Positions 1 through 60,646 of a stretch of 64,000 nt of DNA are shown here, piece by piece. A program made the translations under genes and the position numbers. The notes beneath the pieces were generated by a model. The model worked only from the letters and a program-made list of their open reading frames with translations. It was not told the origin of the DNA and did not search any database. How positions within the stretch are numbered: the stretch's first letter is position 1; each line of letters begins with the position of its first letter. This DNA comes from a virus: the IMG/VR virus record IMGVR_UViG_3300031369_000001, positions 1 to 64,000 of that record; one strand, written 5' to 3'.

Positions 1-1
1 T

Positions 2-43
2 AATAATCAACCTCAATATCCTAATAATCAACCTCAATATCCT
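2..43 (+). repeat. 21-bp tandem coding repeat (NNQPQYP)
   Basis: Two perfect copies of a 21-bp unit encode NNQPQYP. A degenerate continuation (NNAYQPQ, QGFPQQGYP) follows. The array may begin upstream of the window. Confidence 0.85.
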
Positions 44-1291
44 AATAATGCATATCAGCCGCAACAAGGATTTCCACAACAAGGATATCCTATTCAATCA
101 CCATATCCTATGCAAGGACAAATGCCGTCACAAAATATGCCACAGCAATTTACTGGACAAATGCCTGTTTATAATATGCCTGATGCTAATCAAATGATGA
201 GTGCATATCAAGAGCATAAAATGTCTATGGGACGCGGTGGATCTCAATATACTTTTGTTAAATTTTTAGGCCCAAATAATGAGTCTAAATGGGAGAGTGT
301 AGCAGTTCCTATTGGCTACCAATCGGTTATAAGGGCTTTTATTTTACCACCATGGGCACCTGGAAAATATATATTTGCGATTGCTTTAAGCCATTTTTGG
401 AAATCAGTCAGTAAGCCTCAAGGTGCGTCATTAGGCTGTCCGGGAGCTGATAGTTGTAAAATATGCCAAGTAGCTAGATTAGCTATTGAAAGTTCTGACC
501 TTAGTACACAGAAAAGGGCGAAAGATTGGGGGAGTGTTAATACTAATTTTCTATATCAAGTAGCGTTATTAGATACACCACAAATTCATTTTAATAATGG
601 ACAAGCCCAACCGGCTGTTTTACGAGCAGGTGCTACGCTGCATAAAGCAATTGGTAATTTATTAGAGGAAAGATCTGTTAATATTTGCGATCCACAATTA
701 GGTAGACCTATTAGAATAAAGAAAACAAAAACTGGTCCAGGGAAGTTTGATGTAGAATATAGTTGTATTGATGAAGATCCACAGCCTTTACCACAGCAAT
801 TTTGGGGATTATTGTCTAATTTGATAGACCTTGAATCTGTATTTAAGCATCCAAGCGAAGAAGAGATGCAAAATGCAATCATAGATATGGGACTTGGTAA
901 CATCGGTGGATCTTCATCGATGCAATATCCCAATTCTGGAGTACGGCAGCCTTATTCAATGCAAAATACAATTCCTCCAATGGTGTCTAATCCTATTCCT
1001 CAACCTAATGCTCCTAATTTAGTACCACAACCCCAACAGAATATTAATCCTCCTCCTGTTTCAAGTGGGAATTATAATGGACCTCCGTACTATCCGCAGC
1101 CTTCCCAACAGAATACTTTACCACAGCAACCTATTACGCCTAATGTACCATTTAACCGTAGTCCAATTAAAAAGGAAGCTCAAAATGTAAATCCTTCCCA
1201 GCAGGCGAATACTCAAGCACCTTTAGGGCAACAACAGCCCATGACTTTACAACAACTTCAAGATTCTATTCGAGGAAATAATGGTAATTAG
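2..1291 (+). CDS. gp32-like single-stranded DNA-binding protein (5' end outside window)
   Basis: The frame is open from the first bases of the window, so the Met codon at 110 is internal. The visible N-terminal part is rich in Pro, Gln and Asn and starts with two copies of NNQPQYP. The core (after MSMGRGGSQYTFVKFLG) is followed by a zinc-type H..C..C..C cluster with HFWK, then CPGADSCKIC, as in the T4 gp32 family, which coats single-stranded DNA during replication and recombination. The C-terminal 120 residues are again Pro/Gln/Asn-rich and disordered-looking, unlike the short acidic tail of T4 gp32, and include NRSPIKKE. It stands directly before a recombinase and SbcCD genes, fitting a replication/recombination role. 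Family assignment rests on the Cys/His pattern and context. Confidence 0.7.
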   Translation, partial: NNQPQYPNNQPQYPNNAYQPQQGFPQQGYPIQSPYPMQGQMPSQNMPQQFTGQMPVYNMPDANQMMSAYQEHKMSMGRGGSQYTFVKFLGPNNESKWESVAVPIGYQSVIRAFILPPWAPGKYIFAIALSHFWKSVSKPQGASLGCPGADSCKICQVARLAIESSDLSTQKRAKDWGSVNTNFLYQVALLDTPQIHFNNGQAQPAVLRAGATLHKAIGNLLEERSVNICDPQLGRPIRIKKTKTGPGKFDVEYSCIDEDPQPLPQQFWGLLSNLIDLESVFKHPSEEEMQNAIIDMGLGNIGGSSSMQYPNSGVRQPYSMQNTIPPMVSNPIPQPNAPNLVPQPQQNINPPPVSSGNYNGPPYYPQPSQQNTLPQQPITPNVPFNRSPIKKEAQNVNPSQQANTQAPLGQQQPMTLQQLQDSIRGNNGN

Positions 1292-7286: not shown

Positions 7287-7561
7287 CTACTATCTTTCTA
7301 TATAATAGAGAGCGAATTGTAATGGAAGGATTACAATTAGCTAAATTACGAATTTCTAAAAAGTTGGGTTTATCTGAGAATATTGTAGAAGGGGATTTTA
7401 AGATTGCTAACGGAGAATTAGTTCCTAATTTTACTATAGATAAGCAGAAAGTTCCTTTGTCTAAATTGGATGATTTAGAAATGATTGTGAAAGATACATG
7501 GAGCCAAACTCTAGTAGATATCAAAGACAGGTTAGATAGTTTTGAAAAGGGTTCCCATTAA
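7283..7561 (+). CDS. hypothetical protein upstream of small terminase
   Basis: Up to 92 aa. It starts at an ATGA overlap with the preceding stop; a second Met at 7322 (MEGLQLAKLRIS) is an alternative. It is amphipathic, with a probable C-terminal helix (LEMIVKDTWSQTLVDIKDRLDSFEKG). No family recognised. Confidence 0.55.
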   Translation: MTTIFLYNRERIVMEGLQLAKLRISKKLGLSENIVEGDFKIANGELVPNFTIDKQKVPLSKLDDLEMIVKDTWSQTLVDIKDRLDSFEKGSH

Positions 7562-8216
7562 AGACACAAGAATTTCTTTTGACGATCCAGGTGTAAATGT
7601 AAAAGTTTTACCTGGTTCTAAAGTTTCTTCTATTGAATTTGGATCTCCAATAGAAGAATTAAACAATAAAAGTTTGAGAAGTCTTGCAAAGATAAAATAT
7701 GTAACTTCGCAAACCGGTATTTCTTTGAATGATTTATCTAAAGTTTATCCATTTGATAAGGTAGCATTTTCTACATTGACTAAATGGAGTAAGGCGGATA
7801 ATTGGGTAGAAGACCGTGAAAATTATAGGATTGCATTAGAGACAAAAATATTAGAGAAGCTTGGGCAGGCACATGTCCAGGCTATTACTAATCAATTAAA
7901 AGATGCTGACACTATATCGGAAAAAGTGTTTTCAATGCTTGAAAACATGGGCATAGCTACTGTTAATTCTTATGAAGGTTTATTAAATGCTTTAATGCGA
8001 TTAGAAAAATTTAGATTTGATGCTAGGAAAGAAATTGCTGACATAACTAGAGGGGTATTAACTGATAAAGAATCTGAAAAGGTTGACAGTAGGCAGGGTG
8101 TGTCCGTTCCTAAAATAACTCATTCTAAGGAAGCTTTAAGACAAGCAGCTTTTGCTATTATAAAGGCAAATAGAGAACTGAATAAAAAGAAAAATGAAAA
8201 AGAGACATTGGACTAA
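7542..8216 (+). CDS. probable small terminase subunit
   Basis: A 224-aa protein read from a TTG start; no Met codon lies in the early part. Residues about 45-85 (LRSLAKIKYVTSQTGISLNDLSKVYPFDKVAFSTLTKWSKADNWVEDRENY) look like the helix-turn-helix of phage small terminases, with the typical W..(A)DNW..R signature. A helical central part follows. Small terminases recognise packaging sites and hand DNA to the large subunit, which lies 2.5 kb downstream. The N-terminus MKRVPIKD is the clearest copy of the recurrent basic motif. Function is inferred from pattern and context. Confidence 0.6.
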   Translation: MKRVPIKDTRISFDDPGVNVKVLPGSKVSSIEFGSPIEELNNKSLRSLAKIKYVTSQTGISLNDLSKVYPFDKVAFSTLTKWSKADNWVEDRENYRIALETKILEKLGQAHVQAITNQLKDADTISEKVFSMLENMGIATVNSYEGLLNALMRLEKFRFDARKEIADITRGVLTDKESEKVDSRQGVSVPKITHSKEALRQAAFAIIKANRELNKKKNEKETLD

Positions 8217-40202: not shown

Positions 40203-43200
40203 ATGCACATACAAATAGAAGCAAAGAAGGAAGAACTTTTTTCCAAAAGAGTTTCTTTAGTAAAGTCTATCGCTGATTGCATTGGAGAAGTAGATTCTGA
40301 TTTAAAAAATCGTTTAATAAAAGCGATAGACAATAAAGACAAATTGTTTACTGATCCAGTTTTACTAGAAGTATTGAAGCAATGGGAAATAGGTTATAAA
40401 GACCAAACCAATGCGATGCTTGTTGATATAAGTAAAGTATTGGATAAGGGAAAATTAAATAAGAGTCTTAGTTCTGATCCTTCTTGGATTGGTGTTGATT
40501 TAGATAGGACGTTAGCTGAATATCATGAATATAAAGGCCCTGCTTCTATCGGTAAGCCAATTCCTAGAATGGTTGATAGGGTTAAGGAATGGATTGCTAA
40601 TAATAAAAATGTAAAAATTATGACCGCTAGGGCAAATCCAAATTCTAGCGATTTTAGAGCATCTATTACTGCTATAAAGAAATGGTGCAAAAAATATATT
40701 GGAGAAGAATTACCGGTAGTATACGAAAAAGATCTGCATATGGTTGAACTTTGGGATGACCGAGCTATTCAGATTAAACCTAATACGGGTATTAGGGCAG
40801 ATGGATTAAATAAAAGTGAAGATGAAGGTATTTCATATTTTCATTACGATATAGATACAGATTCCTATATTGAAGACTATAATGAATATTTAAATAAAGC
40901 ACAAAAAGGTCCATTCATTGGTCCACGTGGAGGTAAATGGGCTGATCCAGAACACACCATACCTTGGAAAGAAGAAGTACACAGCTACTCAGAAACTAAA
41001 GACCGATATAGTGATGAAGAAGCTGAACAAATTTTAGATAGAATAGGCGAGGCTTTATATAGTCATCAAGCAATTAATCCTCGTGAAAAAGATGATACTG
41101 GATTTAGTTATGTGGATATGGACAGATGGAGATCTGTAACTGGTGTAAATGCAAAGAGACAATTACTTCAAAAATATAAACGCCAAATAGTCGGTGCTTA
41201 TAGTATTGAAGAATATCATAAATTAGGATTAGCAGATGTAAGAGAAGGTAAGGGATATAAAGCGAACATTAAACCTTATTATAATAAAACTTGGGGAAGC
41301 CTCACCCTTCCGGTAGATGGAAGGGTTGATAGAGATACCTTTAATAAATTTAGAGAGATTAATAGAAAACATAATGTGTGGTTTAGTAATGGCGATAACT
41401 TTATTAAAGAACAATATTTAGATGATTTTGATTTTGAATCTTATAAGAAGGATATGGGGGAAATAGGCATAAAAGTTCACCCAATTAAGGGGGAACGAAA
41501 ACAAAATGTATCTGAAAAAGACGAAAAGGATCTTACTGTAGATGAAGCTTTGCAAAGCATTAAAAATAGAAGGATTAAGGATGCAATTGTTCTTAAGAAA
41601 ATAGGTAAAGATAAATTTGCTTTTTGGTCTACCTATTCTCCAGAATTTAATGATTTGTTTTCTAATAAAACTGGTGGATTGTCCGGTATTTTTTACGCAA
41701 ATAAAGATAATAATTGGGCTAGAGAAACGCATGAATTGAATCTAGTAGAAGAAGCTTTACAACAGATAAAGAAGCAATTGCCTAATTATAAGTTGTATAT
41801 AGATGAAGAAGGTTTGAAAGAAGCACAAAATGAAAAAGCGAGATATCAAGCTGAATTACAAAAGCCAATTCCTGAAGTACAGAAATTATTAGATAGTAAA
41901 TATTCATTATTTCCTTATCAAAATGAAGCAGTGCATTTTTTAGATAAAACAAATGGAAATGCCTTAATTGGGGATTCCATGGGACTTGGAAAAACGCTTG
42001 AAACTTTGGCTTGGTTGGCTAAAGGAAATAAGAAAACAATTTTAGTTGTTCCGAAAGTAGTAAGGCGTACTTGGTTACAAGAAGCAGATAAGTTTTTTCC
42101 AGGGCAGTTTAAAGGAACTGAATTAGTGTCTTCTGATATAAGAAATAATAGAGTTCCAAATTTTAAAGATAAGAACCTTGTAACTGTTAATTATGAATCT
42201 TTAGATAAGTTTTATCCTTATTTAAAGGATGCTGGTTTTGATACAGTAGTAGTTGATGAATCACATAGGATGAAGAATCCTAAAGCTAAACAGACAAAAG
42301 CGATTCAAAAGGTATCGGCATTAGTAAATCATCATATTTTATTGTCTGGAACAGCGGTTAAAAATAAAAAAGAAGAGTTGTTTACCCAGTTAGAAGTTGT
42401 TGCGCCAGGTAAATTTACATCTAAAAATCAAATAAAATTTGCTACTATTGGCGGACTTTGGCGCGATATGAAGGATTTCTATATTGCGAGGAGTAAGGAA
42501 GAAGTTCTAAAAGATTTACCTGAAAAAGTCACTTCTATTATTCAACAAGACATACCTAATTTACCTGATTATGGTGCAAATAAAGATATTGGGGATATTG
42601 CTAAAATTAAAGCTTCTGTAGCAATTGGAAAAGTTCCTGCTACTATTGATTTGGCTAAAGAGATACTAGGTTCTTCTGATTCAAAGATAATTGTGTTTAC
42701 TGATTCAGTTGAGGCAGCTAAAAAGATTCATGAAGAATTAGGTGATATTTCTTTATTGCACCATGGGCAAATGAGCGATGATAAAAGGGAAGCGGTAAAG
42801 GAAGAATTTCAAAAAACAGATGGTAATGGTGATTTCATTTCTCCTAAACGGGTATTCGTAACTACTCGTCAGTCAATGGCTGTAGGAGCTACTTTAACCG
42901 CTGCTGATAAAGTCATTTTTAATGACTTACCTTGGACTGCTGCTGATTTACGACAAGCAGAGGATAGAGCACATAGAATTGGGCAAAAGAACAACGTAAA
43001 TGTTTATTGGGTCACTGCTTCGAATAATTTATTTGATTCTTCAGTTACGGAGATAATTAAAAGGAAATATGAATTATCTAAAAAAGTAAATCAGGGAAAG
43101 AAGCTGACGCAAGAAGAAATTGCATGGATGAATAAGCCGTTAACGGTTAGTGATATATTGAATAAAATACATGGAGGTAAAACGCCTATAGAAGAAGAAA

Positions 43201-45011
43201 AACAATTGCTGATTAAAGAAAATAAACCTGAAGTTCCTGTTATTCCGATAGAAGTACCTAAACAAGAAGAAGAGCAGAAGCCTAAATTTATTATGCAAGA
43301 ACCTGTAAAAGTTAAAGAATCTAAAGATATAATAGATATAAAAAAAGATATTAAAGAAACACAAAATAAGATTGATAAATTAAGAGATAGACAATTAAAA
43401 GATTGGCAATCTGGATCTATAACTCGTAAAAGGACAACTACATATAATGCTGAAATAAGTCGACATAATGATAGGATACAAGAATTAAAAAAGCTTTTAA
43501 ACAAATATGAAGAAAATATTAGTGTAATACAAGAAAAAGAACCTGTAAAAGTTGAAACACAAGAACCTGTTAAAAAGAAACGTGGAAGGCCTCTTGGTTC
43601 TAAAAACATTAAAAGAGTTGCTATTCCTCCAATGGTTATCCAAGAACCTGAAAAAAAGAAAAGAGGGAGACCTCCTGGTTCTAAAAACAAAATGACTCGA
43701 GTTGCTATTAAAGAAGTAACACCTCCTACATTTAAACGAGAAGCTATAAAAGAGGAACCTGTTAAACAAGGTAGGGGAAGGCCACCAAAGCCACAAAGTG
43801 TAAAAGAAGCGGAATCTAGTTTAGCTTACGTTTCTGCTAAGAATATAAAACTTAAAAAAGTTGCTTCTGATGACGTTCACGATGTCTATCAAACTAATTT
43901 TTCTATAGACGTAGATGACGCCAAAATAGCTATGAATAATTTACGTGAGCAAGGTATCAATGCAACGGTGCTAGAAGGAGATCCAGGAATAGTTAAAATA
44001 AGAAAAGGTTTTATAATTAGTGAATCTGATTTATATAAAGCCTTATTCATAGGACCTAAAGGTGGTAAATGGGCAAATGCTGAACATACCATACCTTATC
44101 AAGAAGATATAGTTCGAAAACCTGTTAAGCGAGAACCACCTGGTTCACAGTTAGCAATTGACGTACAAAATAAATTAAAAGAATTGAAAGTAGACAAATT
44201 ACCTCAATCTACTATTCCAATTTCAGACATTAGAATTGATTTAACAGGTAATGTTGATACAAAAGCAATCATTACTTGGAAAGATACTAAAGGAAAAGTC
44301 CAAAGTGGTTATACTCCAAAATTCCATGAAATAAATGCTAAGGAAAAATGGGATAGAATTAATAAATTTAGAAGTAAGAAAAAAGAAATTGTAAATACAT
44401 TAAATGAAAAATTGATTAAGGGGAAACCCGGTAGTATTGACCACCAAGGTTATACTATATTAGCCATTATTGCAGAAACAGGATTACGTCCAGGTAGTAC
44501 TGAAAGTGTTAGAAAGCATGGTCATTACGGTATAAGTACTTTAAAAAAGGATCACATTGCTTTAAATAATAAAATGGCTGTTTTAAATTTTATTGGCAAA
44601 GAAGGAAAGAAGAATGTTACAGTGATTCAAAATCCTGTTACGTTAAAAGCTTTAGAGTATTACGTAAGCAATGCTACCGAAAATGGTAGTATATTTAATT
44701 CCAATGCTTTGGATACTGGTAAAACCATACTTCCTAAAGGAATGAAGGTGAAAGACCTTAGAACAATTAAGGCCACCGAATCAGCGGAAAGATTATTAAA
44801 AGAAGTTGACACTCCTCCTCCATTAACCGGAGATAGTAAAAAGGATAAACGATTATTAGCAAAGGCATTGTTGGAAACAAGTAAAAAAGTGGCTACAATA
44901 TTGAATAATACTCCTAGTATTGCAAAGGCTAGTTATATCCATCCAATGGTATTTGAACAATGGGCAAAAAGTGTAGGAGCATCTGAAAAACTTTGGAAAG
45001 AGGTAGGTTAA
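40203..45011 (+). CDS. giant fusion: HAD domain, SNF2 helicase, AT-hooks, topoisomerase IB
   Basis: A 1602-aa protein. Order: LNKS site (85-88); HAD-like domain with VDLDRTLAEY (D99, D101), MTARA and WDDRAI; sites LNKS near 202 and LNKA near 230 followed by the linker GPRGGKWADPEHTIPW; SNF2 helicase with GDSMGLGKT near 590, DESH near 685 and AEDRAHRIGQ near 917; three AT-hooks (KKRGRPLG, KKRGRPPG, GRGRPPK, 1125-1195); LYKA near 1277 followed by GPKGGKWANAEHTIPY; then type IB topoisomerase with TGLRPGS, FIGKEGKK, KDLRTIKAT and SYIHP with probable catalytic Tyr1578. The AT-hook region also carries KRVAIP, TRVAIK and KREAIK. It is probably cut into parts by the prohead protease and carried in the virion. 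Confidence 0.85.
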   Translation: MHIQIEAKKEELFSKRVSLVKSIADCIGEVDSDLKNRLIKAIDNKDKLFTDPVLLEVLKQWEIGYKDQTNAMLVDISKVLDKGKLNKSLSSDPSWIGVDLDRTLAEYHEYKGPASIGKPIPRMVDRVKEWIANNKNVKIMTARANPNSSDFRASITAIKKWCKKYIGEELPVVYEKDLHMVELWDDRAIQIKPNTGIRADGLNKSEDEGISYFHYDIDTDSYIEDYNEYLNKAQKGPFIGPRGGKWADPEHTIPWKEEVHSYSETKDRYSDEEAEQILDRIGEALYSHQAINPREKDDTGFSYVDMDRWRSVTGVNAKRQLLQKYKRQIVGAYSIEEYHKLGLADVREGKGYKANIKPYYNKTWGSLTLPVDGRVDRDTFNKFREINRKHNVWFSNGDNFIKEQYLDDFDFESYKKDMGEIGIKVHPIKGERKQNVSEKDEKDLTVDEALQSIKNRRIKDAIVLKKIGKDKFAFWSTYSPEFNDLFSNKTGGLSGIFYANKDNNWARETHELNLVEEALQQIKKQLPNYKLYIDEEGLKEAQNEKARYQAELQKPIPEVQKLLDSKYSLFPYQNEAVHFLDKTNGNALIGDSMGLGKTLETLAWLAKGNKKTILVVPKVVRRTWLQEADKFFPGQFKGTELVSSDIRNNRVPNFKDKNLVTVNYESLDKFYPYLKDAGFDTVVVDESHRMKNPKAKQTKAIQKVSALVNHHILLSGTAVKNKKEELFTQLEVVAPGKFTSKNQIKFATIGGLWRDMKDFYIARSKEEVLKDLPEKVTSIIQQDIPNLPDYGANKDIGDIAKIKASVAIGKVPATIDLAKEILGSSDSKIIVFTDSVEAAKKIHEELGDISLLHHGQMSDDKREAVKEEFQKTDGNGDFISPKRVFVTTRQSMAVGATLTAADKVIFNDLPWTAADLRQAEDRAHRIGQKNNVNVYWVTASNNLFDSSVTEIIKRKYELSKKVNQGKKLTQEEIAWMNKPLTVSDILNKIHGGKTPIEEEKQLLIKENKPEVPVIPIEVPKQEEEQKPKFIMQEPVKVKESKDIIDIKKDIKETQNKIDKLRDRQLKDWQSGSITRKRTTTYNAEISRHNDRIQELKKLLNKYEENISVIQEKEPVKVETQEPVKKKRGRPLGSKNIKRVAIPPMVIQEPEKKKRGRPPGSKNKMTRVAIKEVTPPTFKREAIKEEPVKQGRGRPPKPQSVKEAESSLAYVSAKNIKLKKVASDDVHDVYQTNFSIDVDDAKIAMNNLREQGINATVLEGDPGIVKIRKGFIISESDLYKALFIGPKGGKWANAEHTIPYQEDIVRKPVKREPPGSQLAIDVQNKLKELKVDKLPQSTIPISDIRIDLTGNVDTKAIITWKDTKGKVQSGYTPKFHEINAKEKWDRINKFRSKKKEIVNTLNEKLIKGKPGSIDHQGYTILAIIAETGLRPGSTESVRKHGHYGISTLKKDHIALNNKMAVLNFIGKEGKKNVTVIQNPVTLKALEYYVSNATENGSIFNSNALDTGKTILPKGMKVKDLRTIKATESAERLLKEVDTPPPLTGDSKKDKRLLAKALLETSKKVATILNNTPSIAKASYIHPMVFEQWAKSVGASEKLWKEVG
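40914..40979 (+). repeat. linker repeat shared with the MuF fusion gene (copy 1)
   Basis: These 66 bp, coding FIGPRGGKWADPEHTIPWKE and flanks, match 49529-49594 with only three differences. The two giant genes thus share DNA-level homology at module borders. Confidence 0.9.
43576..43790 (+). other. AT-hook region
   Basis: This codes three RGRP-type AT-hooks, two of them as KKKRGRPLGSKN and KKKRGRPPGSKN, plus GRGRPPKP. AT-hooks bind the minor groove of AT-rich DNA, which fits the base composition of this genome. They are rare in phage proteins. Confidence 0.8.
44032..44104 (+). repeat. 73-bp exact repeat shared with the MuF fusion gene (copy 1)
   Basis: The stretch coding YKALFIGPKGGKWANAEHTI and flanks is identical base for base to 48465-48537. 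Third codon positions are also identical, so the copying is recent. Confidence 0.95.
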
Positions 45012-55201: not shown

Positions 55202-55420
55202 GTGAAAATGATGAAAAGAGTAGCAATTAAAGATCCTTATTTTTCATTAAAATGGGAAATTTTCCAATTGCCGGAAGAACAGCAAACGAAGTGGGAATTG
55301 ATGTATGAGGTGTCAGGTGGCTCACTTCTTTTTGAACGGATTCATGTTCTTTACCCACGTAAAATAAAGAATTTGGTAAAGGTAATTGATATCCTTTACG
55401 AGAAAATGGAAAGAGAATAG
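55202..55420 (+). CDS. hypothetical protein with N-terminal KRVAIK motif
   Basis: About 72 aa from GTG at 55202, six bases after AAGGAGG (an ATG at 55211 is further away). The start MKMMKRVAIKDPYFS carries the recurrent basic motif. The rest is helical and Trp-containing. First gene of the regulatory operon with the receiver and sigma factor. Confidence 0.55.
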   Translation: MKMMKRVAIKDPYFSLKWEIFQLPEEQQTKWELMYEVSGGSLLFERIHVLYPRKIKNLVKVIDILYEKMERE

Positions 55421-55430
55421 GAGGTTTTTC

Positions 55431-55811
55431 ATGGAGAAGAAAAGAATTTTGGTAGTAGATGACGATCCATTAATTTGTAAAATGATTAAACGTTGCATAA
55501 GAATTTTTATTAAATATCCTATATTAAAAGTGAAATGGGCATTTAGTGTTAGGCAAGCTATAAAGACTATAGATAACAGTCATAAAAAATATAGTCTAGT
55601 GATTACTGATTGGGATTGTTCCCAAGAGAATGATGGATTTAAAGTTGTTTCTTGTGCATTGGGGAATGGTATCCATTGTATTGTGTACACAGGTGATTCT
55701 TTATCTGCAAAATGTTTTTTAAAGAATTATGGAATAGAAATACCCATTATTGACAAAGTAGCTGATATTACGAAATTAATGGAGGTTATAAATGGAATTA
55801 TCATTAGATGA
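55431..55811 (+). CDS. stand-alone response-regulator receiver domain
   Basis: A 126-aa CheY-like protein from the ATG at 55431 (GGAGG upstream). All receiver residues are visible: acidic pair in VVDDDP, phospho-acceptor in VITDWDC, Thr in VYTGDS and Lys in IIDKVAD. It has no output domain. It overlaps the sigma-factor gene by 20 bp. Receiver-only proteins act by protein contact, so it may control the sigma factor beside it or tap a host two-component pathway. Rare in phages. Confidence 0.8.
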   Translation: MEKKRILVVDDDPLICKMIKRCIRIFIKYPILKVKWAFSVRQAIKTIDNSHKKYSLVITDWDCSQENDGFKVVSCALGNGIHCIVYTGDSLSAKCFLKNYGIEIPIIDKVADITKLMEVINGIIIR

Positions 55812-56577
55812 TAAACATTTAAACACTTCATATCAAGAATTATTTGATGCAAATATAAAATTAGTATACCATTATGTTAAAAAACATTCTTATTTTTCCG
55901 ATGAGTTGGAAAAGGAAGATGTTTTACAAGACGGTAAACTAGGACTATTCTTAGCAGCTAAAACTTTTGATCCTAATAAAAATGTAGCTTTTTCTACTTG
56001 GGCATATTATTGGATAAAAGCCATTATTACTCGTTCTCAGGCCAAGTTTACATTTTTAAAATGGCCAAATAAAAAATATATTATCCGGACTAAAATTATT
56101 CAATTTTGGGGGAAGTACTACAATTCACATGGAGAAAATCCAGAATTAGACGACATTATTAATGCTTTAGAAGATTTGGACGCATATATGCCTATAACTT
56201 CTAAAGATATTACCATTGTTTATAATAATATAACAATGTTCAAAAAATCATTAACTAATAAAACAGGGGAAGCTAATCAAGACTTTTCAGATTATGGTAA
56301 TGAAATTCTATTAGAGAGTATAATGGTTCCGCAGGAATCAGCTGAAGATAGACTAGTAAAAAAAAGGTCGGTTGAGTTAAATAAATGTTTGTACAAATTG
56401 CCATATTTTGAACGTTTTATAATTGAAAAAAGATATTTGGAAGAATATACTTTAGAGGATATCAGAAATTTATGGAGTGAAATTACTGGAAAGACGTATA
56501 CACGAGAATGGATACGCCAAAAAGAAAAAACAGCATTAAAGAAAATGAAACGATTTATGGAGGAATTTGATGTCTAA
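55792..56577 (+). CDS. sigma-70-family sigma factor
   Basis: A 261-aa protein. Region 2 spans about residues 14-85 (FDANIKLVYHYVKKH, EKEDVLQDGKLGLFLAAKTFDPNKNVAFSTWAYYWIKAIITR), with the aromatic-rich promoter-melting segment FSTWAYYWI. Region 4 spans about 195-258 (LYKLPYFERFIIEKRYLEEYTLEDIRNLW...TREWIRQKEKTALKKMK). It should redirect host RNA polymerase to phage promoters, probably for the head genes just downstream. Confidence 0.88.
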   Translation: MELSLDDKHLNTSYQELFDANIKLVYHYVKKHSYFSDELEKEDVLQDGKLGLFLAAKTFDPNKNVAFSTWAYYWIKAIITRSQAKFTFLKWPNKKYIIRTKIIQFWGKYYNSHGENPELDDIINALEDLDAYMPITSKDITIVYNNITMFKKSLTNKTGEANQDFSDYGNEILLESIMVPQESAEDRLVKKRSVELNKCLYKLPYFERFIIEKRYLEEYTLEDIRNLWSEITGKTYTREWIRQKEKTALKKMKRFMEEFDV

Positions 56578-56908
56578 GTTATTTTATATATTTCTAATAG
56601 TTGTTACTTGCACGCCATTTGTAATTTATCAATACATAACATATGAGTTATATGATTATACCGGTAAGGTTTATGAAGAATCTTATATTACGGTAAAAGA
56701 TTATGAGTCTATTAACGACTTACCAGTTTATAAGCAATTAAAACAAATACAAAATAGAAAAGAAAAATGTGATAGGATATGTCGGTTGGCTAAGTATTTG
56801 TATAGAAAAGAAATGAAAAGATTAAATGATTGGTGGTACACATGGGATCAACTTGTAAAAGCAAAAAAGGAGAGATTACGTGAAAAGAGTAGCAATAAAA
56901 ACAGATAG
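56570..56908 (+). CDS. single-span membrane protein
   Basis: A 112-aa protein from the ATG at 56570 with one N-terminal membrane helix (LFYIFLIVVTCTPFVIYQYI) and a charged cytoplasmic or periplasmic helical tail with CDRIC. Overlaps the sigma gene by 8 bp. Could be a spanin-like or membrane regulator; unknown. Confidence 0.55.
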   Translation: MSKLFYIFLIVVTCTPFVIYQYITYELYDYTGKVYEESYITVKDYESINDLPVYKQLKQIQNRKEKCDRICRLAKYLYRKEMKRLNDWWYTWDQLVKAKKERLREKSSNKNR

Positions 56909-57332
56909 CTGTGATTGTGTCTATTGTAGGTACCCGGTTACTCCAGAAGTTCATGACAAGAGGTTTATTGCTGAAGCGGTTGCAATTCGGCAATATATAA
57001 AGTTAGATCAATTACCTAATTTACAAAAAGCATTAGAAAAAGCTTCAGTTAATTCGGAAATTTGGTTGGAGATAGTGTTCTTGCTTAAAAAAATTATTGA
57101 AGATAAGATAGCTTTAACGGAAGTTATTTCTCATGCTTCCATTGGTTTAATTCATTCTGAATGGTATAAAATAGGGGATTATTTGCGGAAACGGGCAAAA
57201 GACTATAGGAAAAATGCATCTATAGAAAGAAAGGATAACGAAATTGAGGGAGCTGCTATTTGGGAAGGAGTTGCTGAGGACCTAGAATCTTGCGCGTATG
57301 CTATTGATAACGGGATGCATTGGAATAAGTAG
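56880..57332 (+). CDS. hypothetical protein with N-terminal KRVAIK motif (GTG start)
   Basis: A 150-aa protein from GTG after AAAAAAGGAGAG. It starts MKRVAIKTDSCDCVYCRYP: the recurrent basic motif, then CDCVYC. The rest is helical (LVLP-rich QNLQKALEKASVN-type repeats). Last gene before the head-assembly operon. No family recognised. Confidence 0.55.
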   Translation: MKRVAIKTDSCDCVYCRYPVTPEVHDKRFIAEAVAIRQYIKLDQLPNLQKALEKASVNSEIWLEIVFLLKKIIEDKIALTEVISHASIGLIHSEWYKIGDYLRKRAKDYRKNASIERKDNEIEGAAIWEGVAEDLESCAYAIDNGMHWNK

Positions 57333-57381: not shown

Positions 57382-57409
57382 AAGTTATACGTTAATTAAG
57401 GTATAACTT
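57382..57409 (+). promoter_or_regulatory. inverted repeat upstream of head operon
   Basis: AAGTTATAC (57382-57390) and GTATAACTT (57401-57409) are perfect 9-bp arms with a 10-bp spacer, about one helical turn apart. It is a likely dimeric regulator site before the capsid genes. Confidence 0.55.
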
Positions 57410-57430: not shown

Positions 57431-57458
57431 TTGACAAAATTTCAAATTTAATTACATT
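57431..57458 (+). promoter_or_regulatory. sigma-70-like promoter of head operon
   Basis: TTGACA (57431-57436), 16-bp spacer, TACATT. The -35 is perfect; the -10 is weak. TATATA at 57461 is an alternative -10 at poor spacing. A small hairpin GTGTGCAAACAC lies in the leader. Confidence 0.45.
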
Positions 57459-57530
57459 CTTATATAGATAACGCGATAAGCCTACCTGTGTGCAAACACA
57501 ATTGAGGCAAATAGCATATAAAGGTGCTAA

Positions 57531-58322
57531 ATGCCTCAAGAAATTCCTACAAATGATTTTAGACTTTCTGTAGGAGAAGCTTCTTTTTTTACAAAAGCTT
57601 CAGCTCCCGAAGGACAACAACGTCGAATAGGTGGTGTTGTTTCTACAGAAACTCCGGATAGACAAGAAGAAACTCTTATTCAAAATGGTTTAGATTTTTC
57701 TGAATTTGTAAAATATGGTTGGTTTAATGACAACCATTCTAATCCTAAAGTGAGTCATACCTGTAATTTAGTAGGGTATCCTGAGTTAACTGAACGTTTT
57801 CAAAAAGGTGATAGGTTGCCTGATGGAAAAATTGCAAAAGCAGATTGTCATTGGGCAGAGGGGTATTTGTTAGAAGGTTATTCACCTGCTGATGAATTGT
57901 GGAATCTTGCCTGTGCCTTAAATAAGACCCCCCGTAGATTGGGTTTTTCAGTTGAAGGTAAAATTCAACGAAGAGATCCATTAAATAAGTCTACTGTTAC
58001 AAAGGCAATTGTTAGAGAAGTAGCAATTACAAAAGCCCCTGTTAATACAGATACACAATTAAATATATTAGCAAAGGCTCTTTCTATGGGTACTTCTATT
58101 CCAGGCAATTCTGTCGATGGAGATAAAACCGGGGAAAATGCTGGGCAAGTTCTTGCTCAGGAATCCTTAGAGAAGAAAAAGAAAAAGAATTTAAAAAAAG
58201 GTTTAACGGATAGTCAAGCGTTTGCTTGGTTATCTAATCATTTACCCAATATATCCCCTGAATTAAAAGGGAGAATAATCTCGTTGACTCGGGATTTAAA
58301 ATTGCAAAATAAATTGCATTAA
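57531..58322 (+). CDS. prohead protease (HK97 gp4-like)
   Basis: A 263-aa protein. The family core is clear: GGVVSTETPDRQEE, the catalytic His in NDNHS (H69) and the catalytic Ser in RLGFSVEGKI (S140). Such serine proteases cut scaffold and capsid inside the prohead. The C-terminal part has LNKS, VTKA, ITKA and LAKA sites, and FTKA lies near the N-terminus, suggesting self-processing at the same motif as in the scaffold and the giant fusions. It starts the head operon. Confidence 0.85.
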   Translation: MPQEIPTNDFRLSVGEASFFTKASAPEGQQRRIGGVVSTETPDRQEETLIQNGLDFSEFVKYGWFNDNHSNPKVSHTCNLVGYPELTERFQKGDRLPDGKIAKADCHWAEGYLLEGYSPADELWNLACALNKTPRRLGFSVEGKIQRRDPLNKSTVTKAIVREVAITKAPVNTDTQLNILAKALSMGTSIPGNSVDGDKTGENAGQVLAQESLEKKKKKNLKKGLTDSQAFAWLSNHLPNISPELKGRIISLTRDLKLQNKLH

Positions 58323-58338
58323 TTAAAAGGAGTTAGTT

Positions 58339-59157
58339 ATGAAAAGACAGCCAATGCAAAATGATGATGAGATGAAGAACAAGAAAGATCAGATGGATGA
58401 GGATAACGAAGATTCTCAAATGGAAGAAGAAGAAAAGTCTTGCGGTACTAAGAAATCACAAGACCTAACCGAAGATGACCTCAGTAAAGCTGTTGAGGTA
58501 TTAAATGATTATGTCAATACGACTGATCCAAATTCTCGAAAAGAGACTTTATTGAAAAAAGCAATGACTGATGATCTTTCTTCTGAAGAGATGAATGAAC
58601 TATTTAAATCTTTAAGTGGTTCTGAAAATTCAAATACGGAAGAAGTTAATGATTTTTCTGATTCTGTTCTTAATTCATTAGAATCTGATACTATTCAGAA
58701 ATCATTAGATGTTTCTGATTATTTAACAGAATTGCATAGTGGATTAGTTAAATCGCTTAGTACGTTAGAAGGAGAATTAAATAGTAATGCTATGCGTCAG
58801 CATACATTTAATATTACTCTTGCTAAGAGCATGGTTTCTGTTGTTACTGGGTTACAGCGTACAATGAATGTTATTTCTGAATTAAAAAAATCTATGGACA
58901 ATTATAGTGAAGCCCCTATTAGAAAGCCAACATCTGTTCAACCTTTAAACAAAGCTTTTGTTGGACACAATGGGCAAGAAGGGCAGTCTTTAAAGAAATC
59001 TGAAATGATGGGACAATTACTCTATCTTGCAGAGCAAGGAGTTGATAACATTGGGGGAGTTAGTGTAAATCATGCGGTTGCTTTACTGGAAAGTAGCAAT
59101 CAATTACCTAATCAAGTTGTTAGTGCTTTAAAAGCTAGACAAGGAGCTACTGCTTAA
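58339..59157 (+). CDS. scaffolding protein with repeated protease sites
   Basis: A 272-aa acidic, helical protein between protease and capsid genes, the usual scaffold position. It contains LSKA, LKKA, LFKS, IQKS, LVKS, LAKS, LKKS (twice) and LNKA, about one site per 30 residues, which fits a scaffold that is chopped up during maturation. The N-terminus MKRQPMQNDDE is a degenerate form of the basic motif. Confidence 0.75.
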   Translation: MKRQPMQNDDEMKNKKDQMDEDNEDSQMEEEEKSCGTKKSQDLTEDDLSKAVEVLNDYVNTTDPNSRKETLLKKAMTDDLSSEEMNELFKSLSGSENSNTEEVNDFSDSVLNSLESDTIQKSLDVSDYLTELHSGLVKSLSTLEGELNSNAMRQHTFNITLAKSMVSVVTGLQRTMNVISELKKSMDNYSEAPIRKPTSVQPLNKAFVGHNGQEGQSLKKSEMMGQLLYLAEQGVDNIGGVSVNHAVALLESSNQLPNQVVSALKARQGATA

Positions 59158-59158
59158 T

Positions 59159-59195
59159 AATGAGGGCAGAGCTTATATATAATTGTGCCCTCATT
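59159..59195 (+). terminator. stem-loop before the capsid gene
   Basis: AATGAGGGCA (59159-59168) pairs perfectly with TGCCCTCATT (59186-59195). No U-tract follows, so it may protect or process the capsid mRNA rather than end transcription. Confidence 0.55.
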
Positions 59196-59215
59196 GGGCT
59201 TAAAAGGAGTTAAAA

Positions 59216-60646
59216 ATGTTAGAGAACATGGTTAGTTTTTCAGATTATGATGGCATCGAGGGATATGGAAGTGTTCAGCAGCAAGAAGTAGTTGACTTGA
59301 ATAAAGCTTTAACTGCTGGACAAGATATAGCGGCGCCTACTGTTGCTGCTGGAGAAGGCTTTCCTTTACGGGTTGAGTCTTTAGAGAATACCTTAAAAAC
59401 GGTTACCTTTACGGCAAAAGAAATTGTTTTTTGGAAAGCTATTCCCAAAATCCCTGCATACAATACGGTGGAAGAGCATAATCAGATTTCGAATTATGGA
59501 TCTAATGAGGATTCTGGATTCATTCCGGAAGGTGCGCTTCCTGAAAGTGATGATTCTACTTATGCGCGAAAGTACGCGGTGGTAAAGTTTTTAGGTACTA
59601 CTCGATCTGTAACTCATGTAATGAGTCTCGTTCGGCCAGCGCATGGTAACGTTATCGCCAATGAAACCGTTAATGGAACATTGCATTTACTTCGTATTTT
59701 GGAAAAAGCTCTTTATTACGCGGATTCTTCTTTATCTGCTGTTCAATTTGATGGCTTTAATAAGCTAATTACGGATAATGCAGATTCTGATCATGTATTA
59801 GATTTAAGAGGAGCGCCTCTTACCGAGGATATTTTATCGGACGCAGTAGCTACTGTTAGAACTTCTTATGGATTTCCTACTCATCTTCATTTAAACCATA
59901 AGACTAAGTCGGAATTAACTAAGACATTTTTCCCCAAAGAGCGACATAATACTTTTACTGATAATAGTGGTATTATTGGTAATAACATTACTGGGTTTAC
60001 TTCTGAATCAGGTATCGTTCAATTTGTAAGTAATACTTTTCTTACTGGTAACACTGCTTCTTATAATTCCGCAGCAATTGGGGACGCAACTAAAATCCCT
60101 GGAACACCTACTATCAGTACTTCATTAGCTGCTTCTGGTACGGCAGCTCCGTTATGGACTGCGGATGATGCTGGGAGCTATTATTGGACTGTCGTTGCGT
60201 GCAATCGTTATGGGAGGTCAGCTCCAGTGGACGCAAATGAGGCCGGAGGTGCTTTTGCCGTTGCCACTACGCAAACAGTTACTTTTGGTGTAACACCGTC
60301 AACTACTGGAGGTGCCGGGGCTACTGAATGGTACGAAATTTATCGTACTAAAAAGGGTGGGGCGGATGGTACGGAGAAATTAATTCAACGTATCGTGAAC
60401 TCTAATACTACAAGTGAACAAACAATTACGGATTTGAATGCAAGTCTCCCGGACACTACCAATGCCTTTTTACTTCAGCAGAATATTGATAGTCTTTCAT
60501 TTAAACAATTAGCTCCGATGGTTAAAATCCCATTAGCGACTATTGCGACAGCCGTTCGTTGGTGTCAGGTTCTTTATGGGGTTCCTGTGCTTTATGCCCC
60601 GAATAAGAATTTCTTATTTAAGAATGTGGGAAAGAATAACTACTAA
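59216..60646 (+). CDS. major capsid protein (HK97 fold) with inserted Ig/Fn3-like domain
   Basis: A 476-aa protein preceded by AAAGGAG. The N-terminus has LNKALTAGQDI near residues 28-38: an LxKA site whose cut would leave a mature start similar to HK97 gp5. The core shows an HK97-type E-loop/spine and C-terminal LATIATAVRWCQVLYGVPVLYAP. Residues about 290-405 (GTPTISTSLAASG...AGSYYWTVVACNRYGRSAP...EWYEIYRTKKGG) look like an inserted fibronectin III/Ig-like domain, probably displayed on the capsid surface. GC content is higher than nearby, as in strongly expressed genes. Confidence 0.85.
   Translation: MLENMVSFSDYDGIEGYGSVQQQEVVDLNKALTAGQDIAAPTVAAGEGFPLRVESLENTLKTVTFTAKEIVFWKAIPKIPAYNTVEEHNQISNYGSNEDSGFIPEGALPESDDSTYARKYAVVKFLGTTRSVTHVMSLVRPAHGNVIANETVNGTLHLLRILEKALYYADSSLSAVQFDGFNKLITDNADSDHVLDLRGAPLTEDILSDAVATVRTSYGFPTHLHLNHKTKSELTKTFFPKERHNTFTDNSGIIGNNITGFTSESGIVQFVSNTFLTGNTASYNSAAIGDATKIPGTPTISTSLAASGTAAPLWTADDAGSYYWTVVACNRYGRSAPVDANEAGGAFAVATTQTVTFGVTPSTTGGAGATEWYEIYRTKKGGADGTEKLIQRIVNSNTTSEQTITDLNASLPDTTNAFLLQQNIDSLSFKQLAPMVKIPLATIATAVRWCQVLYGVPVLYAPNKNFLFKNVGKNNY

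Follow-up and report, generated by a model that had tools for sequence, protein, structure and literature searches.

Lytic phages are generally considered to follow a fixed transcription programme. The described systems closest to the locus analysed here are of two kinds: bacterial receivers that control or feed sigma factors, and phage accessory genes that overlap their transcription-factor neighbours. In the PhyR-NepR-EcfG system, a receiver controls a sigma factor through protein binding; PhyR combines its receiver with a sigma-like domain in one protein and acts via an anti-sigma (PMC12148442). RssB is a response regulator whose sigma-binding is enhanced by phosphorylation; it requires a C-terminal effector domain, and its receiver domain by itself adds little to sigma-S binding (PMC7226468). 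MrrA, Spo0F and CheY are single-domain receivers with all five phosphorylation residues, as is the phage protein described below; they are bacterial genes, and an overlapping sigma gene is not among their known features. MrrA feeds a sigma pathway by shuttling phosphoryl groups between kinases (PMC5964349). Among phages, SPO1 has an accessory gene (gp33) that immediately precedes the late sigma gene (gp34) and overlaps it, and its capsid protein is related to the one encoded here; its overlap measures 4 bp, compared to 20 bp in our locus. In the T4 late system (gp55, gp33), too, an accessory gene with a conserved overlap lies near a late-transcription factor; the system works with a clamp and a sigma factor in split form, and includes no receiver. 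The overlap of dsbA and gene 33 is conserved and coupled, yet no transcription function was found for it (PMC2988020). This T4 precedent calls for caution before a coupled operon is read from a conserved overlap. No description of a phage operon combining a receiver with a sigma factor was found in the open-access literature, and the locus reported here (Table 1) is a new combination of two known protein kinds.

The window, that is, the whole stretch of DNA analysed (64,000 nucleotides), corresponds to positions 1-64,000 of a virus record of 102,614 bases. The final 100 bases of the record are repeated at approximately 182-281 of the window (terminal repeat; window 1-281), indicating that the genome is probably complete. 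The phage is contractile-tailed, with genes for a sheath and a baseplate; its capsid protein is SPO1-like and has its closest characterised relatives in SPO1-like phages, almost all its genes lie on the same strand, and it also encodes UvsX, SbcC and sliding-clamp-like genes. An AGGAGG-like strong site precedes most of the phage genes, which suggests a host using Shine-Dalgarno sites and says nothing finer about it. Elsewhere in the window (40203-45011), an SNF2-type helicase and a eukaryote-type topoisomerase I catalytic core are fused in one protein of 1602 amino acids. The anatomy of the receiver-sigma locus, as presented in Table 1, can be considered practically certain.

Table 1 Features of the receiver-sigma cassette and of the adjoining head region (positions in the window).
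Feature	Position	Strand	Basis or remark
72-aa ORF with a GTG start, opening the conserved cassette	55202..55420	+	Kept in both relatives
Stand-alone CheY-like receiver, 126 aa	55431..55811	+	Pfam, AlphaFold model, structural matches, residues
Sigma-gene Shine-Dalgarno site (GGAGG) within the receiver gene, in a predicted hairpin	55781..55785	+	Sequence, RNA folds
Sigma-70-family factor, regions 2 to 4, 261 aa	55792..56577	+	Pfam, PHROG, NCBIfam
112-aa ORF, 8-bp overlap with the sigma gene	56570..56908	+	Conserved with the cassette
150-aa ORF, 29-bp overlap with the 112-aa gene	56880..57332	+	Cassette member
Promoter-like site upstream of the head protease: TTGACA, 16 bp, TACATT	57431..57458	+	TTGACAAAATTT identical in the three phages
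Head genes: maturation protease, scaffold, SU10/SPO1-type major capsid protein	57531..60646	+	PHROG 1028, 15087, 752

By its modelled fold and its residues, the first protein of the pair is a true receiver. Its reading frame runs from an ATG at 55431 to a stop at 55811, preceded by a Shine-Dalgarno site (GGAGG, 55420-55424). As a single sequence it scored 29.1 bits (E 1.2e-6) against Pfam Response_reg (PF00072), slightly below the curated cut-off of 30.2 bits, a shortfall outweighed by the fold and the five residues, which settle the identity of the protein. The AlphaFold model (pLDDT 90.3, pTM 0.86) has five alternating strands and helices, the (beta-alpha)5 receiver fold, and matched solved receivers in Foldseek (TM 0.74-0.80) and in VIA-align (Z about 16 (16.7), 111-121 residues aligned; a few rows with titles unlike receivers were left out). 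Receivers are defined by the active-site residues DD, D, T/S and K (PMC12632262). All five phosphorylation residues (D10, D11, D60, T87, K109) were present and invariant across the three phages compared (the window and its near relatives L002 and L007), with D10/D11, D60, T87 and K109 directly following strands 1, 3, 4 and 5, as expected. Canonical receivers usually have an aromatic switch residue three positions before the Lys, and a Pro after it. The corresponding residues of the three phages were I, V and I (non-aromatic) and V, S and G; the preliminary description, which credited the receiver with all key residues, was right about the catalytic five, but not about the aromatic switch and the Pro. 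The protein stops after alpha5, with neither a sigma-like nor a C-terminal effector domain. No second receiver was detected in the phage record; the search against 50,697 phage records gave zero matches at E 1e-3, and the search with the L007 receiver just two weak ones (Listeria phage, E 0.3).

The product of the overlapping gene is, from its profile matches, a true sigma-70-family factor: Sigma70_r2 was detected above the Pfam cut-off (E 1.5e-13), Sigma70_r4 slightly below it (21.8 bits; cut-off 24.1), PHROG 351 was matched at E 7e-27, the RpoD C-terminal model aligned to residues 15-254 (regions 2 to 4), and the best PDB matches were primary sigma factors. The structure prediction of this protein was of low confidence (pLDDT 51), and therefore no sigma model was used. 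Inspected by eye, the helix TREWIRQKEK has R, E, R and Q at positions which we take to be those of sigma-70 R584, E585, R588 and Q589, the residues reading the -35 box; region 2.4 has an Ala at the position of sigma-70 Gln437. No match to this sigma factor was found in GTDB genome contigs.

The two genes overlap by exactly 20 bp (55792-55811), as reported in the preliminary description. The start that it gave for the pair, 55202, belongs to the separate 72-aa ORF, although the pair itself is real, and its location just before the head operon is accurate only roughly, since two small ORFs and a gap of 198 bp precede the protease at 57531. A coupling of function is not supported by the overlap: in our gene calls, which include 151 genes on the plus strand, 47 neighbours overlap, in 8 cases by at least 20 bp, and the next two junctions of the cassette overlap by 8 and 29 bp. 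Overlaps being ordinary in this phage, that of 20 bp is not a sign of joint function, and it was rejected as evidence of a receiver-sigma interaction. The sigma start site pairs in a predicted RNA hairpin in all three phages (L007 uses different partner bases), with weak or modest z-scores (-2.1, -1.9 and -0.5); this predicted hairpin fits a translational coupling of receiver and sigma. Two 20-nt direct repeats (55212-55231 and 56881-56900, 95% identical) lie on either side of the receiver, sigma and 112-aa genes, and both encode KRVAIK, as the start of the 72-aa and of the 150-aa protein; judging from their sequence, they are a possible trace of insertion or duplication of the cassette.

The search for the pair in other phages, suggested in the preliminary description, recovered it in both near relatives, which share the gene order, the 20-bp overlap and the five receiver residues with the window; on this point, the proposal withstood the refutation set out there. 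Identities to the window were 88% (capsid), 91% (sigma) and 56% (receiver) in L002, and 82%, 58% and 47%, respectively, in L007. The 72-aa ORF (80% and 63% identity in the two relatives) and the 112-aa ORF (95% and 55%) are also present, as is the 150-aa ORF (89% in L002; a shortened relative in L007), so that the tight run formed by the 72-aa ORF, the receiver, the sigma factor and the two small proteins is kept as a unit in the lineage. Screens of other phage loci (by HMM for the receiver and the sigma factor; capsid identities from 79% to 36%, up to 10 kb upstream) detected neither the receiver or sigma factor of the window, nor the other cassette genes beyond the window, L002 and L007; the screened loci include contigs too short to judge, among them the one with the 79% capsid. 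In four near-complete distant relatives (98-110 kb), a region-2 sigma factor and a related receiver were undetected, three of them lacking any detectable receiver, and in none of nine phages, from Bacillus to Vibrio, did a receiver adjoin a related sigma factor. Among the sequences compared, the pair is lineage-specific; as it occurs in only three sequences of one lineage, the shared neighbourhood by itself is weak evidence of joint function. The receiver of a relative with a 58% identical capsid (G006) was considered as a counterpart and rejected: it is unrelated, degenerate and located after the capsid genes. In L106 (1495-1899), a more distant capsid relative of 109 kb, an unrelated receiver-like protein is encoded past the capsid genes; its active site is degenerate (ADHD, GEPI). 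The region directly upstream of the cassette is variable; in L002 it contains an 85-aa ORF (7511-7768), of which the window retains only a remnant.

The receiver evolves faster than its neighbours. Between the window and L002, its dN/dS was 0.37 (bootstrap 0.20-0.59), compared to 0.065 (0.04-0.12) for the sigma gene and 0.06-0.18 for the neighbouring genes. Synonymous change in the receiver was ordinary (30% of the identical codons; 18-34% in the neighbours), indicating that it is probably not an imported or distant allele, and allele replacement is disfavoured as the origin of its fast change. The changes were concentrated in alpha2, alpha3 and alpha4-beta5, and the alpha4-beta5(-alpha5) output face was not conserved. 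Segments 1-23, 54-63 and 84-90, comprising the active site and alpha1, were identical at 35 of 40 positions and segments 24-53 and 64-83 at 12 of 50, a split chosen post hoc after the alignment; the whole-gene contrast involved no such choice. Conservation of the final residues has a different cause, their overlap with the sigma start and its Shine-Dalgarno site. We read this pattern as phosphotransfer and kinase docking being retained, while the remainder tracks something variable. Since the sigma factor is nearly invariant, any receiver surface binding it would be expected to be equally quiet; a phosphorylatable receiver facing a variable host partner would fit better than a fixed dock on the sigma factor. 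The face formed by alpha1 and the active site, which is conserved, may just as well serve to dock the sigma factor.

Neither an HATPase_c kinase nor Hpt domains were detected in the phage record, so the source of the phosphoryl group would be a host kinase, a host Hpt or acetyl phosphate. The reading that explains the locus best, to which we give a probability of roughly 40%, is a takeover operon with translational coupling, in which host kinases feed the receiver. Translation of the receiver would open the hairpin over the sigma start, and both proteins would be made together; the sigma factor would bring the RNA polymerase of the host to those phage promoters that have TTGACA as their -35 box, and the head promoter is the best candidate for one of them; the receiver would be phosphorylated, via its conserved pocket and alpha1 face, by a histidine kinase or phosphotransfer protein of the host, and would drain, redirect or report the host signal. 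The fast-changing outer faces point to a variable protein of the host as the relevant partner, rather than to the near-invariant phage sigma factor. If receiver and phage sigma factor are produced jointly, host signalling would have a route into the phage transcription programme; alternatively, the phage would drain a host signalling pathway during takeover. Since the pair is kept in both near relatives, this phage may, during its takeover of transcription, listen to a signalling kinase of the host or hijack it.

It is unlikely, in our estimation, that the phosphorylated receiver binds or frees the phage sigma factor, a host kinase timing the transcription switch. Adjacency and overlap are retained in three phages, the phosphorylation pocket is intact, and RssB is a precedent for a response regulator binding a sigma factor in a phosphorylation-dependent manner (PMC7226468); against this, the sigma factor is nearly frozen (91%) while most of the receiver surface varies, the alpha4-beta5 face is unconserved, the aromatic switch residue is absent, no anti-sigma was found, and the RssB receiver domain contributes little without its effector domain, which the phage protein does not have. 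Slightly less likely still would be a direct switching of the viral sigma factor by a host histidine kinase through the receiver, with no anti-sigma between them. The PhyR-NepR analogy drawn in the preliminary description failed: the phage protein is a receiver only, NepR had no match in the 102.6-kb record (a tiny model with a noisy control), and neither a conserved alpha4-beta5-alpha5 face nor the aromatic switch is present. Membership of the PhyR family was rejected on architecture, there being no fused sigma-like domain; a functional likeness of the receiver to PhyR or RssB is possible. Overall, the interpretation given in that description was partly supported.

We consider it doubtful, more so than the switching proposals, that the two genes are mere operon neighbours, the receiver doing an unrelated host-modulating task (e.g. 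in motility or dormancy) from a position that is historical. The frequency of overlaps in the phage, the confinement of the pair to one lineage and the variable sequence just upstream all agree with this; the cassette has nevertheless stayed intact in three phages whose receivers differ at about half of their residues. Least probable is that the receiver is a phosphorylation-independent RNA polymerase or sigma accessory, the functional counterpart of SPO1 gp33: the SPO1 genes have the same order, accessory then sigma, with their 4-bp overlap, and the nearest characterised capsid relatives are SPO1-like, but gp33 is not a receiver by sequence and shows no similarity to the phage receiver (hhalign probability 0.1%), all five phosphorylation residues have persisted although about half of the other positions differ, a pattern not required by a purely structural role, and the phage sigma factor already possesses region 4. 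SPO1 gp34 showed no clear similarity to the phage sigma factor at the sensitivity used.

The conserved TTGACA promoter before the head genes is the best hint of a late role for the sigma factor. This TTGACA fits the intact -35 residues of the phage protein, and host sigma-A could use the site too; the -10 box is unusual (TACATT, and TATATT in L007). The longer intergenic gaps contain just two perfect TTGACA sites with a -10-like match (at most two mismatches from TATAAT), the head promoter among them; this number is too small to derive a motif, and a late promoter consensus was rejected. A near-perfect palindrome of 28 bp, AAGTTATAC(G/C)TTAATTAAGGTATAACTT, precedes the head promoter (57382-57409) and is perfect in L002; it was discarded as an operator of the system, being present in the window and L002 and absent from L007. 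Between the head promoter and the protease start (57460-57530), a highly conserved leader, AGATA.CGCGATAAGCCTACC ... GGTGCTAAATG, is shared by the three phages, and may be a structured 5' leader.
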